Shown piece after piece: positions 18,642-31,859 of a stretch of 64,000 nucleotides of DNA. The first letter of the stretch is position 1, and every line of letters begins with the position of its first letter. The notes below the pieces were generated by a model that did not search any database, had not been told where the DNA came from, and was given only the letters and a program-made list of their open reading frames with translations. Position numbers and translations under genes: made by a program. Source of the stretch: Cyanocohniella sp. LLY (GTDB lineage Bacteria > Cyanobacteriota > Cyanobacteriia > Cyanobacteriales > Nostocaceae); assembly GCA_022241785.1 (NCBI GenBank), contig JAKOMP010000009.1, positions 835-64,834 on the forward strand. Direction: 5' to 3'.

Positions 18642-18821
18642 ATGACAAGAAATATAAGTATTGAAGAAATCAAAACAATGATTTTTCAACTACCAGTTGA
18701 AGAATTGATAACACTGATATCAGAAATTGAAGAAAGACTGGAAACTGTGAAAATGATGCAACTAGCAGAAACTGGTTTTCAGGAATGGAACGACCCAGAA
18801 GAAGATATTTATTATGATTAG
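18642..18821 (+). CDS. Putative antitoxin of the PemK/MazF pair, 59 aa
   Basis: A short gene from ATG 18642, preceded by AGGAG at 18629-18633, ending TAG 18821. The product (MTRNISIEEIKTMIFQLPVE...) is a charged, helical peptide with an acidic tail (EWNDPEEDIYYD), like many cyanobacterial toxin-blocking peptides. It overlaps the toxin gene by 8 bp (ATGATTAG), the coupling expected for antitoxin-toxin pairs. No DNA-binding domain is obvious at this length. Confidence 0.75.
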   Translation: MTRNISIEEIKTMIFQLPVEELITLISEIEERLETVKMMQLAETGFQEWNDPEEDIYYD

Positions 18822-19176
18822 TCCTCAAACACCAGAAATCTGGCTAGTTCGATTTCCTTTTAGTGATTTAACTTCTACAAAACTTAGACCAGCTTTTATA
18901 TTGGCAGCACATAGAGAAGAACTAATTATATTAGGTATCTTTTCCAAAATGCCTATTGGAGAACTAAGAGAAACTTGGGTTGTGATTTCAGATAAACATC
19001 CTAATTTTTCACAAACGGGTTTAAAAAAGACATCTTTAATTAGAACTGATAAAATTGCCACGGTCAATGCATCGGTGTTTCAAAGGCAGTTAGGAAGCTT
19101 GCCCTCAGATATATTACCCTTAGTACAGGCAGCACTGAAAATATGTCTTAATATTAGCTATATACTGCTTGTCTGA
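18814..19176 (+). CDS. PemK/MazF-type toxin endoribonuclease
   Basis: 120-residue protein with the MazF/PemK N-terminal pattern (EIWLVRFPFSDLTSTKLRPAFIL), the TSLIRTDKIATVNAS segment and the closing LGSLPSDILPLVQAAL. Members cleave mRNA at short sequences and are held inactive by the upstream antitoxin. Start ATG 18814 lies inside the antitoxin stop region. Together with the adjacent HigB remnant this makes a small toxin-antitoxin patch between the Rieske and kinase genes. Confidence 0.87.
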   Translation: MISPQTPEIWLVRFPFSDLTSTKLRPAFILAAHREELIILGIFSKMPIGELRETWVVISDKHPNFSQTGLKKTSLIRTDKIATVNASVFQRQLGSLPSDILPLVQAALKICLNISYILLV

Positions 19177-22737: not shown

Positions 22738-23916
22738 ATGTTTAGTAAATTTAAATACGCTACTCCTAGTAGTAAAGAGGATATTCAGCAACTAGGATAT
22801 ATCCTCGAACAGTGTTTTATCATGTCTGCTGGAGATAGCGCCATATATATGCCGCGTATTGGTATGGATAAGTCGCGCGCTATTTATCAAGACCAGCAAA
22901 TTGTCGGTGGACTAGCAATGATTCCGATGGGTCAGTGGTGGGGTGGTCAACGTGTACCCATGACGGGAATTGCTGCGGTGGGTATTGCTCCAGAATACCG
23001 TGGTGATGGTGCTGCGATCGCACTCATACAACAAGCTGTGAAAGAACTCTCTGAGCAGGAAGTGCCAATTTCGGTACTTTATCCCGCTACTCAACGTCTA
23101 TATCGCAAAGCCGGTTACGAACAAGGGGGTAGTTATTGTACTTGGGAAATTTCTCCTGACAGTATCCAGTTGCAAGATAAATCGTTACCTTTGCAACGTG
23201 TAAGTGCCAAAAATCATGCTATTTTTTACGACTTATATCAGCAGCAAGCAAAACTCACTGATGGATACATAGACCGACATCCGGCTATATGGCAAGGTGT
23301 AACTCAACCAGATCATCAAGAAACTGTCTATGGCTATTTGATTGGTGACACAGACCAACCCCAAGGCTACGTCATCTTTACTCAAGAACGCACCAAGGAT
23401 GGCGCAATTTTACGAGTCAGAGATTGGGCAATGTTGACACATGCTGCGGTACGAACTTTTTGGAAGTTTGTTGCCAATCATCGTTCCCAAATTGATCAAG
23501 TGCAATGGAAAAGTTCTGTAGTTGATTTTTTAACATTGCTACTACCAGAACAAACTGCCAAAATTAAAAATCAAGAGCGTTGGATGCTGCGGATAATAAA
23601 TGTCGTTAAGGCGTTAGAGATGCGGGGTTATCCCTTAGGAATTGATGCTGAATTACATTTAGAAATTCAAGATAACTTATTAGCTGCCAACAACGGCAAA
23701 TTTATATTATCTGTAGCTAATGGACTGGGAAAAGTTACCAAAGCAGGGAAAGGTGAGTTGCAGTTAGATATTAAAAACTTAGTACCTTTATACACAGGTT
23801 TATTCACACCTCATCAATTACAACTAAGTGGCAAAATTGACGCTACAGCAACGGCACTAGGAACAGCCACACAAATATTTACAGGTAATTCTCCGTGGAT
23901 GGCTGATTTCTTTTGA
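22738..23916 (+). CDS. Eis-like GNAT acetyltransferase with SCP2-like domain
   Basis: 392 aa. The N-terminal GNAT domain has the acetyl-CoA motif AAVGIAPEYRGDGAAIAL (about 80-97) and YPATQRLYRKAGYEQ. A second degenerate GNAT-like region follows, and a C-terminal sterol-carrier-type domain (about 290-385; KFILSVANGLGKVTKAGKGE). This three-part layout is that of the Eis family, hexameric N-acetyltransferases known from aminoglycoside acetylation in mycobacteria. The cyanobacterial substrate is not known. Upstream lies an imperfect inverted repeat from a dispersed family; downstream there are 265 bp without a gene. Confidence 0.85.
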   Translation: MFSKFKYATPSSKEDIQQLGYILEQCFIMSAGDSAIYMPRIGMDKSRAIYQDQQIVGGLAMIPMGQWWGGQRVPMTGIAAVGIAPEYRGDGAAIALIQQAVKELSEQEVPISVLYPATQRLYRKAGYEQGGSYCTWEISPDSIQLQDKSLPLQRVSAKNHAIFYDLYQQQAKLTDGYIDRHPAIWQGVTQPDHQETVYGYLIGDTDQPQGYVIFTQERTKDGAILRVRDWAMLTHAAVRTFWKFVANHRSQIDQVQWKSSVVDFLTLLLPEQTAKIKNQERWMLRIINVVKALEMRGYPLGIDAELHLEIQDNLLAANNGKFILSVANGLGKVTKAGKGELQLDIKNLVPLYTGLFTPHQLQLSGKIDATATALGTATQIFTGNSPWMADFF

Positions 23917-24181: not shown

Positions 24182-26356
24182 ATGTTAAATTTGATGCCTG
24201 CATTTTGCAATAATCTTCAATCAAAAGCTATTACAGAAAGAACAGGTACATTCAGTGATAACATGAAACTACCTATTCATAGGTGGTTTAGATATTCTGC
24301 GGGATTTTCCGCAGCTTGGGTTGAAGAGGTAATTACAGAACTTAAACCTCAAGTTGTCCTTGATCCATTTGCTGGATCTGGTACTGTTTGTATTGCTGCT
24401 GATAAACTGGGCGTGAATTCCTACGGTATTGAAGCGCATCCTTTTGTTTACCGTCTTGCAAAAGGTAAGCTTTCATGGAATATACCAATATCTCAGTTTT
24501 TAGAAGCGATAACTGAGATTAAAAATATTGCCGCTATTTTGCAGCCAAAGCTTCCAGAAAACATTCCGGTATTACTTAGCAAATGCTACACCGAGGATGT
24601 ACTAATATATTTATTTAAAATCAGGCAAGCTTATTTAAGCTTAGCTCCAACTCTGAGCAAAGATTTACAGTCCCTAATTTTTCTAGCAATTTGTGCTACT
24701 TTACGGTCATCAAGCTATGTAGGTACGGCACAATGGCAATATATTCTGCCTAATAAACGAAAAGTTAAGACTTATGAACCACTGGTTGCATTAGATAATC
24801 AAGTGGCGTTAATGCAAGAAGATATGCGTTATATGCAGTGTCTTAGACGAAAAACTCAAGCTACCTTCCTACAAGAAGATGCAAGAGTTCTAGAAAGTAT
24901 TCCCCATCAATCAGTAGATTTAGTCATTACTTCTCCACCTTATGCAAACAACTATGATTATGCTGATGCTACACGCCTGGAAATGACATTTTGGGGCGAA
25001 GTCAACTCTTGGGGTGATTTACATGAGGCAGTGCGGAAGTTTCTGATTCGTTCAAGTTCGCAACACGTGTCAAAGGATAAGCTTAAGTTAGATACTTTGA
25101 TAGCTGATCCTATCCTTAAACCCATTCGAGATGAGTTAATACCTGTTTGTAAAGAGTTAGAAGTAGTCCGCGAAACTAAAGGAGGAAATAAGGCTTATCA
25201 CACAATGATTGCTGCCTACTTTACTGATATGGGTTCTGTATTCCATGCTCTTCGTAGAGTTACAACCTCTAATAGCAAGATTTGTTTTGTAGTGGGAGAT
25301 TCAGCACCTTATGGAGTATATGTTCCTGTGGAAAAATGGCTAGGGAAATTAGCAAATGAGGCTGGGTTTTACCTGTGGTCTTTTGAGAAAATTAGAGACC
25401 GTAACATCAAGTGGAAAAACAGAAAACATAATATTCCACTACATGAAGGCAGACTTTGGATAGAAAGTGAGATTATGGCACAGTCACCATCACATAAATT
25501 TGGTCAGGCACTAGGCAAACTCCTAGAAGATATAGTACTCTACGATATTCTGAAACCTCGACTACAACAATTTGTCCAAGCCAAGAATTATTATCTTGAT
25601 TGGCAACGGTCTCGTCCAGCTAGAAGTGGGAAAAAAGTTACTTGGCTGGATAAGTATGGAAACAAGCATGACCTAGATTTTGTAATTGAAGTCGATGGCA
25701 CAGATGATGAGCTTGGTCGGCCTGTTGCATTTATTGAATCTGCATGGCGTAGGTATACAAAACACTCAAAAAATAAAGCTCAGGAAATTCAAGGAGCTAT
25801 ATTACCGATTATTGAACTTCATCATTTATCAGCGCCCTTTTATGGCGTAGTATTAGCTGGAGACTTCACCAAACCAGCGTTAGAACAACTAAAAAATAAC
25901 GGCTTCGCAGTGATTTTTATTCCTTACAAAGGTGTAGTAGAAGCGTTTGCAGAAATTGCTTTTGATGTTGCTTTTGATGAAAATACTCCTGATGAGGAAT
26001 ATACTAAAGCTTTTAGAAACCTCGATAGTCTTACTAGCTCAGATAAAGAGAAACTTCGACAGGCGTTAATGCGAGTTTCTCAAGAAGAAGTAGATAGTTT
26101 TATGGAAACTCTGAAAAATTCACTTGAGCGTTATATTCATGAAATAGTTGTGATTCCACTTTTTGGAAATAAATATAAATTTGATACTATTAATGATGCA
26201 ATTACTGGGATAAATACCACCATCAATATAAACAGTCCGGTTGGTAAATTTGAAAAATTTGAAGTTATCGTCAATTACAATAATGGCGATACAATTCGAG
26301 CTACTTTTCAAAACCAGCTTTTGCTTATGGATTTTTTAGAAAAGTTGGCAGAATAA
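24182..26356 (+). CDS. DNA methyltransferase (N4-cytosine type) with long C-terminal extension
   Basis: 724 aa. The first half is an amino-methyltransferase: N-terminal FSDNMKLPIHRWFRYSAGFS, SAM motif I LDPFAGSGTV (about 60) and catalytic SPPYANNYDY (about 250). SPPY and motif order fit N4-cytosine enzymes. The C-terminal 290 residues are not needed for methylation. They contain DLDFVIEVDG (about 497) and VAFIESAWRRY (about 513-523), spaced like a PD-(D/E)XK nuclease core, and then a helical, acidic tail. This suggests a single-chain restriction-modification protein, but the nuclease assignment is by eye only. No separate restriction or specificity gene is adjacent. No clear ribosome site is seen. 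Confidence 0.82.
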   Translation: MLNLMPAFCNNLQSKAITERTGTFSDNMKLPIHRWFRYSAGFSAAWVEEVITELKPQVVLDPFAGSGTVCIAADKLGVNSYGIEAHPFVYRLAKGKLSWNIPISQFLEAITEIKNIAAILQPKLPENIPVLLSKCYTEDVLIYLFKIRQAYLSLAPTLSKDLQSLIFLAICATLRSSSYVGTAQWQYILPNKRKVKTYEPLVALDNQVALMQEDMRYMQCLRRKTQATFLQEDARVLESIPHQSVDLVITSPPYANNYDYADATRLEMTFWGEVNSWGDLHEAVRKFLIRSSSQHVSKDKLKLDTLIADPILKPIRDELIPVCKELEVVRETKGGNKAYHTMIAAYFTDMGSVFHALRRVTTSNSKICFVVGDSAPYGVYVPVEKWLGKLANEAGFYLWSFEKIRDRNIKWKNRKHNIPLHEGRLWIESEIMAQSPSHKFGQALGKLLEDIVLYDILKPRLQQFVQAKNYYLDWQRSRPARSGKKVTWLDKYGNKHDLDFVIEVDGTDDELGRPVAFIESAWRRYTKHSKNKAQEIQGAILPIIELHHLSAPFYGVVLAGDFTKPALEQLKNNGFAVIFIPYKGVVEAFAEIAFDVAFDENTPDEEYTKAFRNLDSLTSSDKEKLRQALMRVSQEEVDSFMETLKNSLERYIHEIVVIPLFGNKYKFDTINDAITGINTTININSPVGKFEKFEVIVNYNNGDTIRATFQNQLLLMDFLEKLAE

Positions 26357-26378: not shown

Positions 26379-27005
26379 TCATATTTTTAAATTGATTACT
26401 GAACAAACTTGACTTAAATCTAAAACAAACCCAGGTAATAACGACTCGCCATTAAGTGTTTGAGGATTATCTAATACCTCAACACTAGTATTCGGACGAT
26501 AAATAAAAACTTGGCGTTGCTTTCTATCAATTAACCAACCCAGTTGTGTGCCATTATCTATATACTCTTGCATTTTGTCTTTCAAGATTCGCAAGTTATC
26601 GCTTTCAGAACGCAATTCAATCACAAACTCAGGACATATTGGCGCAAATTTTTTGCGTAGTTCTGGTGATATGGCTTCCCAACGTGTGTGTTTTATCCAT
26701 GCTGCATCGGGTGAACGCACCGCACCATTAGGTAAAGTAAACCCTCCATTTGAACCAAACCCGATACCTGTACCATCTTGTTTTGTCCAAATACCTAACT
26801 GACCAATAATCTCAAAATTACATTGGTTAGTTTCTGTATCAGTTAGAGAAGTAATCATTAATTCTCCTGTAAAACTACGTTCAATGCGAAAATCACGGTT
26901 TAGCTGACAAAATTCATAAAACTGCTCATCTGTCATAGACATTGCACTGGGCAATTGCAATACTATTGGTATAATTTCCGCAATGACTGGTAAGTTGGTA
27001 GTCAT
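26379..27005 (-). CDS. Uma2-family (DUF820) PD-(D/E)XK nuclease-like protein
   Basis: 208-residue member of a family greatly expanded in cyanobacteria. The nuclease-like core appears as PDAAWIKHTRW, then CPEFVIELRSESDNLR (D...ExR), DKMQEYIDNGTQLGWLID and VFIYRP. The biological role of these proteins is not settled; many copies per genome and links to mobile DNA are known. It is convergent with the methyltransferase gene, 22 bp apart, which may be coincidence. Confidence 0.88.
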   Translation of the reverse strand: MTTNLPVIAEIIPIVLQLPSAMSMTDEQFYEFCQLNRDFRIERSFTGELMITSLTDTETNQCNFEIIGQLGIWTKQDGTGIGFGSNGGFTLPNGAVRSPDAAWIKHTRWEAISPELRKKFAPICPEFVIELRSESDNLRILKDKMQEYIDNGTQLGWLIDRKQRQVFIYRPNTSVEVLDNPQTLNGESLLPGFVLDLSQVCSVINLKI

Positions 27006-30694: not shown

Positions 30695-30919
30695 ATGGAA
30701 GTTTTTCAGATGAAGTCAACTGTTGGTGAGTCAGGAGATTTGCATATTGAGATTCCCACAAAGTTGCCACCCGGACAGGTAAGTATAGTAGTTATATTGA
30801 ATCCTGTTGTCCCAAACAGCGTACTGGAAGCTGATTATGATTTTTCTGATGTCGCCGGAAAGTTAGCCTGGCAGGGGGATGCAGTAGCCATGCAAAGGTT
30901 GCTTAGGGATGAGTGGTAA
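30695..30919 (+). CDS. VapB-like antitoxin
   Basis: 74-residue protein (MEVFQMKSTVGESGDLHIE). The N-terminal half has a swapped-hairpin/AbrB-like look (GDLHIEIPTKLPPGQVSIVVIL) and the C-terminal half is acidic with a Trp-rich tail for toxin binding. It overlaps the PIN toxin gene by 11 bp, which is the main support for its role. It is divergent from thrB. Confidence 0.78.
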   Translation: MEVFQMKSTVGESGDLHIEIPTKLPPGQVSIVVILNPVVPNSVLEADYDFSDVAGKLAWQGDAVAMQRLLRDEW

Positions 30920-31286
30920 TCGTTATTTGCTTGATACAAATGCGGTGGTGGCACTGCTACAAGGTAATTCACAACTACTACAACTGTTGCAAAATGCTGA
31001 TTGGGTGGGAATTTCTGTTATTAGTCAAATTGAATTTTTAGCATTTTCTGGGTTGAGTCAGGAAGATAAGCTAGTTTTTCAGCAATTTTTAAGACGGGTG
31101 GAAGTTGTTAGTTTAATGTCCGGGGATACAGTATTAATTGAACAGGTGATCCAACTTCGCCAACAATATCGCCTAAAATTACCGGATGCAATCATCGCAG
31201 CAATGGCGCTTCAGATCAATGCAAACTTGGTAACTCTAGATCAGGAATTTGCTAAAGTCTCCACACTAAAAGTTATTGGCTGGTAG
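30909..31286 (+). CDS. VapC-type PIN-domain toxin ribonuclease
   Basis: 125 aa with the acidic PIN residues in order: Asp in LLDTNAVVALL (about 8), Glu in SQIEFLAF (about 42), Asp in KLPDAIIAAMAL (about 95) and Asp in VTLDQEF (about 114). VapC proteins cleave tRNA or rRNA and are neutralised by the co-encoded VapB. Translation is probably coupled to the antitoxin through the 11-bp overlap. Confidence 0.92.
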   Translation: MSGNRYLLDTNAVVALLQGNSQLLQLLQNADWVGISVISQIEFLAFSGLSQEDKLVFQQFLRRVEVVSLMSGDTVLIEQVIQLRQQYRLKLPDAIIAAMALQINANLVTLDQEFAKVSTLKVIGW

Positions 31287-31352: not shown

Positions 31353-31394
31353 CTAGCCTAATGACTTTTATAAGTTCTCGAAGTTAGCGATCGC
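31353..31394. repeat. 42-bp direct repeat, copy A (duplicate of thrS 3' end)
   Basis: Matches 32007-32048 at 39 of 42 positions, with the last 23 identical. In this copy the sequence GCGATCGCTAA supplies the stop codon of parE in a frame different from that used in thrS. A 20-bp repeat (TTAGACTAGGCATTGCCTAG, 31337-31356) overlaps its left end and recurs at 31884-31903 beyond the antitoxin gene. Confidence 0.85.
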
Positions 31395-31686
31395 TATCAA
31401 GTTGATCTACAAGTCTTTTGCCATAGATCACGGCTGCAATAGTCACAGTATCATCTTGAATTCGATAAATAATTCGATAACTGTATGCCAACTTTTCCCT
31501 AATGTTATCTTCACTAAATTCTGGTGCTACTCGACCTGAAAAGGGCGATTCGTTCAAATGTCGAGTTACATCAAGTATTTCCTGAACCACTGTAGCAGTA
31601 TAAGAAACCGAGTCACGAGATATATATGTAGCGATCGCTTCTACATCTTCTAATGCCTTTTTAGACCAGACTACTTGATCAGCCAT
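31384..31686 (-). CDS. ParE/RelE-family toxin
   Basis: 100 aa (MADQVVWSKKALEDVEAIATYI). The ParE pattern is clear: N-terminal helix hairpin, 'SPFSGRVAPEF', REKLAYSYRIIYRIQDD and VTIAAVIYGKR. ParE toxins poison gyrase while RelE-like ones cut mRNA; the sequence does not settle which. The stop codon lies inside the 42-bp repeat copied from the thrS end. It overlaps the upstream antitoxin by 16 bp. Confidence 0.9.
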   Translation of the reverse strand: MADQVVWSKKALEDVEAIATYISRDSVSYTATVVQEILDVTRHLNESPFSGRVAPEFSEDNIREKLAYSYRIIYRIQDDTVTIAAVIYGKRLVDQLDSDR

Positions 31687-31859
31687 TTGCTCAAAAGTTC
31701 TTTAGCTTCTTGTTGGCTAATGGTTTTTTCTGTATCAGCTACTCCCAGTCCATGACGAACCTTCTCGATAACATATAAATGATACTGGATATCTTCAATG
31801 GAGAAATCATCTGGTAGTTGCTGCAAAAGAGATTGTACTTGTGCTTTTGTGGTAATCAT
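31671..31859 (-). CDS. Antitoxin of the ParE-type pair, 62 aa
   Basis: Small helical, acidic protein (MITTKAQVQSLLQQLPDDFS) typical of cyanobacterial partners of ParE-type toxins; the LPDDFSIEDIQYHLYVIEKV segment is a recognisable family core. It is translated first, and the toxin start lies within its 3' end, fitting coupled expression. Confidence 0.8.
   Translation of the reverse strand: MITTKAQVQSLLQQLPDDFSIEDIQYHLYVIEKVRHGLGVADTEKTISQQEAKELLSKWLIK

Follow-up and report, generated by a model that had tools for sequence, protein, structure and literature searches.

A predicted single-chain restriction-modification enzyme from a cyanobacterium, apparently formed by natural fusion of a methyltransferase gene with a PamI-like nuclease gene

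A methyltransferase and a predicted nuclease in one open frame

Does the 724-codon gene in the Cyanocohniella DNA analyzed here (the window, a stretch of 64,000 nucleotides) encode a DNA methyltransferase alone, or does it carry a complete restriction-modification (R-M) system on one polypeptide? A sequence-only reading of the window had proposed that a complete methyltransferase is followed by an extension of about 290 residues that may be a restriction nuclease. Profile searches with the fused protein bear out this division, with matches far beyond chance on both sides of a boundary near residue 430: the PADLOC type II methyltransferase (MTase) model PDLC03306 covers residues 18 to 428 (E = 3.2e-131), and the type II restriction endonuclease (REase) model PDLC03525 covers residues 432 to 720 (profile positions 1 to 285 of 288; E = 6.5e-59). 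The near full-length match places the C-terminal (R) half in the PDLC03525 family, and a second REase model, PDLC03541, also fits it (E = 3.1e-32). The Pfam N6_N4_Mtase profile matches the N-terminal (M) half (E = 3.6e-16). Significant Pfam and NCBIfam matches are confined to this half, with none in the R half, so that routine annotation may label the gene a plain DNA methylase. Both domains thus lie on one polypeptide, as in type IIC enzymes, the 724-codon frame spanning both PADLOC models. The main features are as follows.

24182..26356, + strand: whole fused M-R gene, 724 aa, a single open frame from ATG to TAA
24182..25468, + strand: methyltransferase part, residues 1 to 429, from the PDLC03306 and Pfam N6_N4_Mtase matches
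24362..24385, + strand: DPFAGSGT, residues 61 to 68, by position in the translation
24932..24943, + strand: SPPY, residues 251 to 254, by position in the translation
25475..26353, + strand: predicted restriction endonuclease domain, residues 432 to 724 (293 residues), with a PD-(D/E)XK-like fold, from PDLC03525, an AlphaFold model, and fold matches

We take DPFAGSGT to be the AdoMet-binding motif I of the methyltransferase half, and SPPY is presumably its catalytic motif IV. SPPY is typical of N4-cytosine methyltransferases.

Predicted fold of the nuclease half

With the entire protein as the phmmer query against solved structures (E up to 1), 13 matches were obtained, all within residues 31 to 431 and none in the R half. 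Predicted alone, the R domain gave an AlphaFold model with a mean pLDDT of 93.9 and a pTM of 0.86. Here two short consecutive strands carry DLDFVIE (residues 497 to 503), the long strand after them bears E519, and the helix after that strand contains H528 and K532. Foldseek alone was weak on this model, with one match at E ≤ 0.001. A second-look structural alignment of the Foldseek candidates placed BstEII best (Z 9.9 over 136 residues), followed by Cdn1 (Z 8.9) and BsoBI (Z 8.7 over 150 residues); the 50 structures listed contain many REases, and BbvCI, NucC, SgrAI, PspGI, AgeI, NgoMIV, and EcoRI all appear there. A Z below about 8 can, however, reflect an arrangement shared by many folds, and a few of the listed structures with Z near 5 seem to have no relation to the R half. 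As modeled, the R half has the PD-(D/E)XK core fold, and not the unlike fold that would have spoken against a nuclease of this superfamily.

A model of the full-length fusion, built from an alignment of the window protein, 4 fused relatives, 44 of 71 M rows, and 4 R rows, reached a pTM of 0.62, with residues 431 to 433 below a pLDDT of 50 and the R half less confident than when predicted alone; the placement of the two halves is therefore not readable from it.

A variant active site common to the family

Two alignments were used to examine conservation in the R half: A2, with 68 R proteins (the window protein and 67 of 76 usable relatives), and A1, with 10 R proteins, including one from the Paracoccus aminophilus plasmid pAMI7. 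The relevant positions are these.

25670..25690, + strand: DLDFVIE, residues 497 to 503, candidate metal ligands; D499 and E503 in 68/68, D497 in 67/68
25736..25738, + strand: E519, second acidic residue of the core; 68/68 (A2) and 10/10 (A1)
25763..25777, + strand: H528 to K532, on the helix following the E519 strand; H528, S529, and K532 in 68/68 and 10/10

D499, E503, E519, R523, R524, H528, S529, and K532 are invariant in both alignments, and D497 varies once. The acidic pair had been placed at about residues 497 and 516; the aspartate stands, with D497 and D499 both in DLDFVIE, and the glutamate is E519 rather than 516. The earlier observation that the usual lysine after the glutamate is missing holds as well: the position two residues on (E+2) is A521 in the window (FIESAWRRY), alanine in all 68 proteins of A2, and alanine or phenylalanine in all 10 of A1. 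The orthodox (D/E)-x-K half motif is absent from the R half (E519-S-A521), and hence its membership in the PD-(D/E)XK superfamily rests on fold and homology. Since the E+2 lysine is absent family-wide, its loss is a family trait; the variant site that had been proposed is common to every aligned member, the pAMI7 protein included, and gives no sign of decay. Migration of the lysine is reported for other PD-(D/E)XK families (PMC1913061; PMC1189080), in the first of these papers to the helix after the third strand. From the model and the conservation, K532 is a candidate for a relocated catalytic lysine that probably replaces the orthodox one; the metal site would then consist of D499, E503, and E519, and K532, one helix further on, would take over the part of the orthodox lysine.

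Both halves also appear constrained. The pairwise dN/dS between the window gene and its nearest relative, the split Nodularia locus L037, is 0.13 for M and 0.19 for R, values that blend the time before and after the window's fusion. Among the fused loci L040, L041, and L042, the R-half pairwise dN/dS is 0.055 to 0.097, and from these sequence comparisons both halves are judged to be constrained while fused in that clade.

Relatives, gene order, and the PamI system

PDLC03525 was matched in 16 of 60 genomes (the window's own included), and the R half has a match in 39 of the 388 genomes of the order, some of these being fragments or distant. A scan of genome contigs yielded 232 R relatives; judged by record titles, Cyanobacteria, several Proteobacteria, planctomycetes, Bacteroidetes, and Chloroflexi are among the hosts. 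We analyzed gene order in the best 80 of these 232: a methyltransferase homolog lies upstream of R in all 80 loci, mostly within a few bases (about 440 bases in L089; in L055, L071, and L095 the methyltransferase is cut by the contig end), and 4 of the 80 (L040 to L043) are clearly in one frame. Rhodoblastus L084, considered as a separate fusion, has an ambiguous base at the junction and was not counted. None of the homologs found in the sources searched, which did not cover REBASE, is described as a methyltransferase only. R or M is broken or partial in several cyanobacterial copies (L024, L033, L035, L036, and L039), and the system seems to be often lost in cyanobacteria.

The R domain is homologous to the nuclease gene of plasmid pAMI7 (35% identity over 222 residues), which follows a C5-cytosine methyltransferase gene and whose product matches PDLC03541 over its full length (734 bits) and PDLC03525 with 87 bits. 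The PamI system of pAMI7 is reported to have NcoI (CCATGG) specificity, and R.PamI is reported to cleave DNA (PMC3925955); from its place beside the methyltransferase on pAMI7, we infer that the R homolog is R.PamI. The two systems are alike in the homologous R gene, in a glutamate with no lysine at +2 and a lysine in the next helix, and in the M-then-R order. They differ in that PamI consists of two separate genes with a C5-cytosine methyltransferase, whereas the window has one chain with an amino-methyltransferase, and the CCATGG specificity is reported for PamI only, not for the fused protein (PMC3925955).

Relatives of the R half occur in six plasmid records; small Erwinia aphidicola plasmids bear the R gene, in one case with an intact M gene before it. 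A phage or viral origin was considered and set aside, as one scan of viral contigs and a phage collection held no R-half relative. PDLC03541-type R genes lie beside unrelated methyltransferases in L020 and L034 (a C5-cytosine enzyme on pAMI7 and an amino-methyltransferase in genome G043). Judging from the sequences, R genes seem to have exchanged their M partners in the course of evolution.

The junction codon and the history of the fusion

Comparison with the split loci locates the fusion at a single codon.

25469..25471, + strand: codon 430, GAG in the window, the former M stop; TAA in L037, TAG in L038 and L039
25475..25477, + strand: ATG 432, the former R start codon, kept, by comparison with the split loci

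The window reads AGT GAG ATT ATG across the junction, the GAG being taken from a single draft assembly (244 contigs). Nodularia L037, the nearest relative (89% identity in M and 88% in R), is split and reads AGT TAA ATT ATG, and the next, Nostoc L038, is also split and reads AGT TAG ATT ATG. A stop stands at the same place in more distant split relatives (e.g., L030, L044, L046, and L052), so separate genes are the older condition. Fusion at codon 430 is seen in nine further sequences, with AAG (L040 and L042), AAA (L041, which is from Fischerella sp. PCC 9431, L043, and L026), GAA (L029 and L121), or AAT (L032 and L118); R is truncated in the fused L032. Apart from AAT, each of these sense codons can be reached from TAA or TAG by a single base change. 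Some free R may still start at the kept ATG 432.

A 26-row tree of M and R protein sequences, built without the junction residues, requires five changes between fused and split states. Well-supported branches force at least four of these, and the window clusters with the split L037 and L038 (support 100/99 and 100/100). A 25-row tree requires four changes, at least three of them forced, and on it the AU test rejects the grouping of all fused rows in one clade (P = 0.0006). Both trees were built without the decayed L039, the ambiguous L084, and more distant loci, and the 26-row tree also without L051 and L053. Three relatives of the fused L026 (L031, L047, and L056) keep the sense codon AAA, but a frameshift a little way upstream separates M from R: two bases are lost in L031 and L047, and four are gained in L056. 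This looks like the renewed splitting of fused genes, the direction of the change being our interpretation.

A tentative reading, which we regard as possible rather than probable, is that codon 430 is a spot of repeated switching between one chain and two, through losses of the stop and later frameshifts, and that the fused form is selected because it fixes cutter and protector at 1:1. If this is true, type IIC enzymes are arising and being undone within one present-day family.

CCATGG as the candidate target

In the window, CCATGG occurs 2 times against an expected 14.5 (standard deviation 3.7, from shuffles), and the genome of the window has 87 sites in 6.78 Mb. Sampled stretches of nine carriers hold 2 sites versus 105 expected, and those of nine noncarriers hold 157 versus 184 expected. 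In these samples CCATGG has the lowest carrier-to-noncarrier ratio of the 64 six-base palindromes, a ranking that leans toward a difference, since the samples were picked for few contigs after the CCATGG counts had been seen and were not blind, the low-count genus g7 is absent from the noncarriers, and a genome with a truncated R (G025) is among the carriers. Within carriers alone, CCATGG is third in depletion, after TGCGCA and GTGCAC; other palindromes, such as TTCGAA, TGCGCA, and GTGCAC, are as strongly depleted in carriers.

We also compared the CCATGG/CCAAGG ratio across 71 genomes of family f1 and 29 of genus g37, together 100 of the 388, grouped as 10 intact carriers, 81 genomes without a match, and 9 with broken, partial, or distant copies that were set aside. 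The median is 0.0104 in the carriers versus 0.0863 in the noncarriers (P = 4e-5), and a genus-stratified permutation over five genera gives P = 0.0018; the direction is the same with G029, G393, and G395, whose copies are broken or partial, counted as intact. The distributions overlap, with 29 of the 81 noncarriers at or below the highest carrier ratio, which is that of the window's own genome. Genus g7 is CCATGG-poor in all of its 12 genomes (20 to 40 sites in 7 to 9 Mb), 9 of them having no match. The scarcity of the site in many cyanobacterial noncarriers suggests other or past systems with a CCATGG target. Full-length carriers outside f1 and g37 have 3 (G039), 14 (G037), 2 (G183), 29 (G187), 100 (G152), 118 (G087), and 2 (G169) sites, but the full-length carriers G105 and G122 (R identity, 67 to 68%) show no avoidance, with 481 and 414 sites. 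Distant relatives (25 to 28% identity) occur in genomes with 470 (G203) and 482 (G075) sites, and the fused G004 has 58. The main text of a methylome paper (PMC4752239) mentions neither "Fischerella" nor "CCATGG." On these counts, CCATGG is the leading candidate for the target of the fused enzyme.

A functional model and its alternatives

The explanation that we favor, and consider likely, is that the two genes of a type II R-M system, its nuclease being of the PamI kind, have fused naturally, yielding a single-chain type IIC-like enzyme that is probably specific for CCATGG. The two profile matches, the M-R operons of the homologs, the homology to the pAMI7 R protein, and the PD-(D/E)XK-like predicted fold all support the single-chain R-M reading first suggested from the sequence, both activities being predicted. 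The phage-exclusion role suggested alongside it is not required by this explanation. An older order of M, stop, one codon (NNN), ATG, and R would have become one frame when the M stop at codon 430, either TAG or TAA, mutated to a sense codon (GAG in the window). The N-terminal half would methylate its target on host DNA, most likely CCATGG, with N4-methylcytosine as the probable product, and the C-terminal half would cut the same site, when unmethylated, in incoming DNA, probably as a dimer.

One alternative concerns the working of the nuclease: with alanine (A521) in place of the orthodox lysine, the R half might no longer cut, and the protein would in effect be an orphan methyltransferase, as broken R genes in several relatives (e.g., G020, G021, G025, and G029) and the higher number of CCATGG sites in the window's genome than in the other carriers tested could also suggest. 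Yet R.PamI is reported to cleave (PMC3925955), and the E+2 lysine is lacking in every aligned relative; the acidic residues and K532 are intact, and the R-half dN/dS values given above, both against L037 and within the fused clade, are low. We consider loss of cleavage improbable. Cleavage of another kind, at a distance and guided by one target-recognition domain serving both activities as in a type IIG-like enzyme, would suit the presence of both domains on a single chain, as in most type IIC/IIG enzymes (PMC4081073). R is, however, encoded on its own in almost all of the best 80 of 232 relatives, and the pAMI7 R works beside a methyltransferase of another kind, so R should recognize DNA by itself. 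We regard a type IIG-like arrangement as very improbable.

A further alternative departs from the favored explanation in the target only: the enzyme would be as described and recognize a sequence other than CCATGG, the scarcity of CCATGG being a lineage trait or the effect of other systems. Many noncarriers are equally poor in the site, as genus g7 illustrates, two carriers (G105 and G122) are rich in it, and other palindromes are depleted as strongly in carriers. We nevertheless consider this somewhat unlikely, because CCATGG has the lowest carrier-to-noncarrier ratio of all 64 palindromes, albeit with noncarriers not chosen blind, and is the reported specificity of the only characterized relative found (PMC3925955).

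Relation to known systems

Single-chain R-M enzymes and a working engineered type II fusion are already known (PMC4081073; PMC3039593), and gene fusion and separation are described as common among type II systems (PMC4081073). The halves of the window protein match PDLC03306 and PDLC03525 over nearly their full lengths, but PADLOC holds these as two separate models, which the window joins on one chain. In RM.Eco29kI (PMC3039593), both type II enzymes are likewise in one chain and both activities are reported to be kept; that fusion was engineered from other enzymes, whereas the window's is natural, with M first. Type IIC enzymes have been proposed to originate when R and M genes in head-to-tail order fuse, an idea tested with that engineered construct (PMC3039593). 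The same paper predicts natural fusions of head-to-tail systems, NcoI being listed among such systems. The type IIC enzyme BtgZI (PMC4081073) is alike in having an N-terminal methyltransferase and a C-terminal variant PD-(D/E)XK domain in one chain, a likeness of domain order; BtgZI recognizes GCGATG, cuts at a distance, and has glutamine in place of the glutamate. Natural fusions of restriction enzymes with regulators (PMC3850674) also join neighboring type II genes, but there the partners are regulator and nuclease rather than methyltransferase and nuclease.

The point of interest is the recurrent fusion, the kind of enzyme itself being known. In the titles and abstract openings searched, we found neither a natural M-R fusion of this family nor a closely related set of natural fused and split genes, though REBASE may list such genes. 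Natural fused and split close relatives that differ by one or two bases at the junction codon are matched pairs, with which one may ask how fusion affects activity, the M:R ratio, establishment in a new host, and phage defense. The methyltransferase of a two-gene type II system is believed to be required earlier than its nuclease (PMC3850674), and a fused system, making both at once, tests that requirement.

Genes around the fusion

The immediate neighbors of the fused gene are these.

22738-23916, + strand: GNAT/SCP2 acetyltransferase gene, the upstream neighbor
26379-27005, - strand: Uma2-family gene ("Putative restriction endonuclease"; PF05685, E = 5.3e-41), convergent, 22 bases downstream

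The initial statement that no separate nuclease gene is adjacent is thus not literally true, the Uma2 gene lying 22 bases away on the opposite strand. The Uma2 gene was found by tblastn in 1 of the 35 related loci tested (L036) and the acetyltransferase gene in 0 of 35, so that neither looks like a conserved partner. The Uma2/COG4636 family (Tt1808; PDB code 1wdj) is itself reported to be PD-(D/E)XK with a moved lysine (PMC1189080) and aligns to the R model with Z 5.9, a likeness of structure.

Three toxin-like loci lie within 6 kb of the fused gene: a PemK/MazF-like toxin gene (18814-19176, + strand), a PIN-domain gene preceded by a small partner gene (30695-31286, + strand), and a ParE-like toxin gene, also accompanied by a small partner (31384-31859, - strand).
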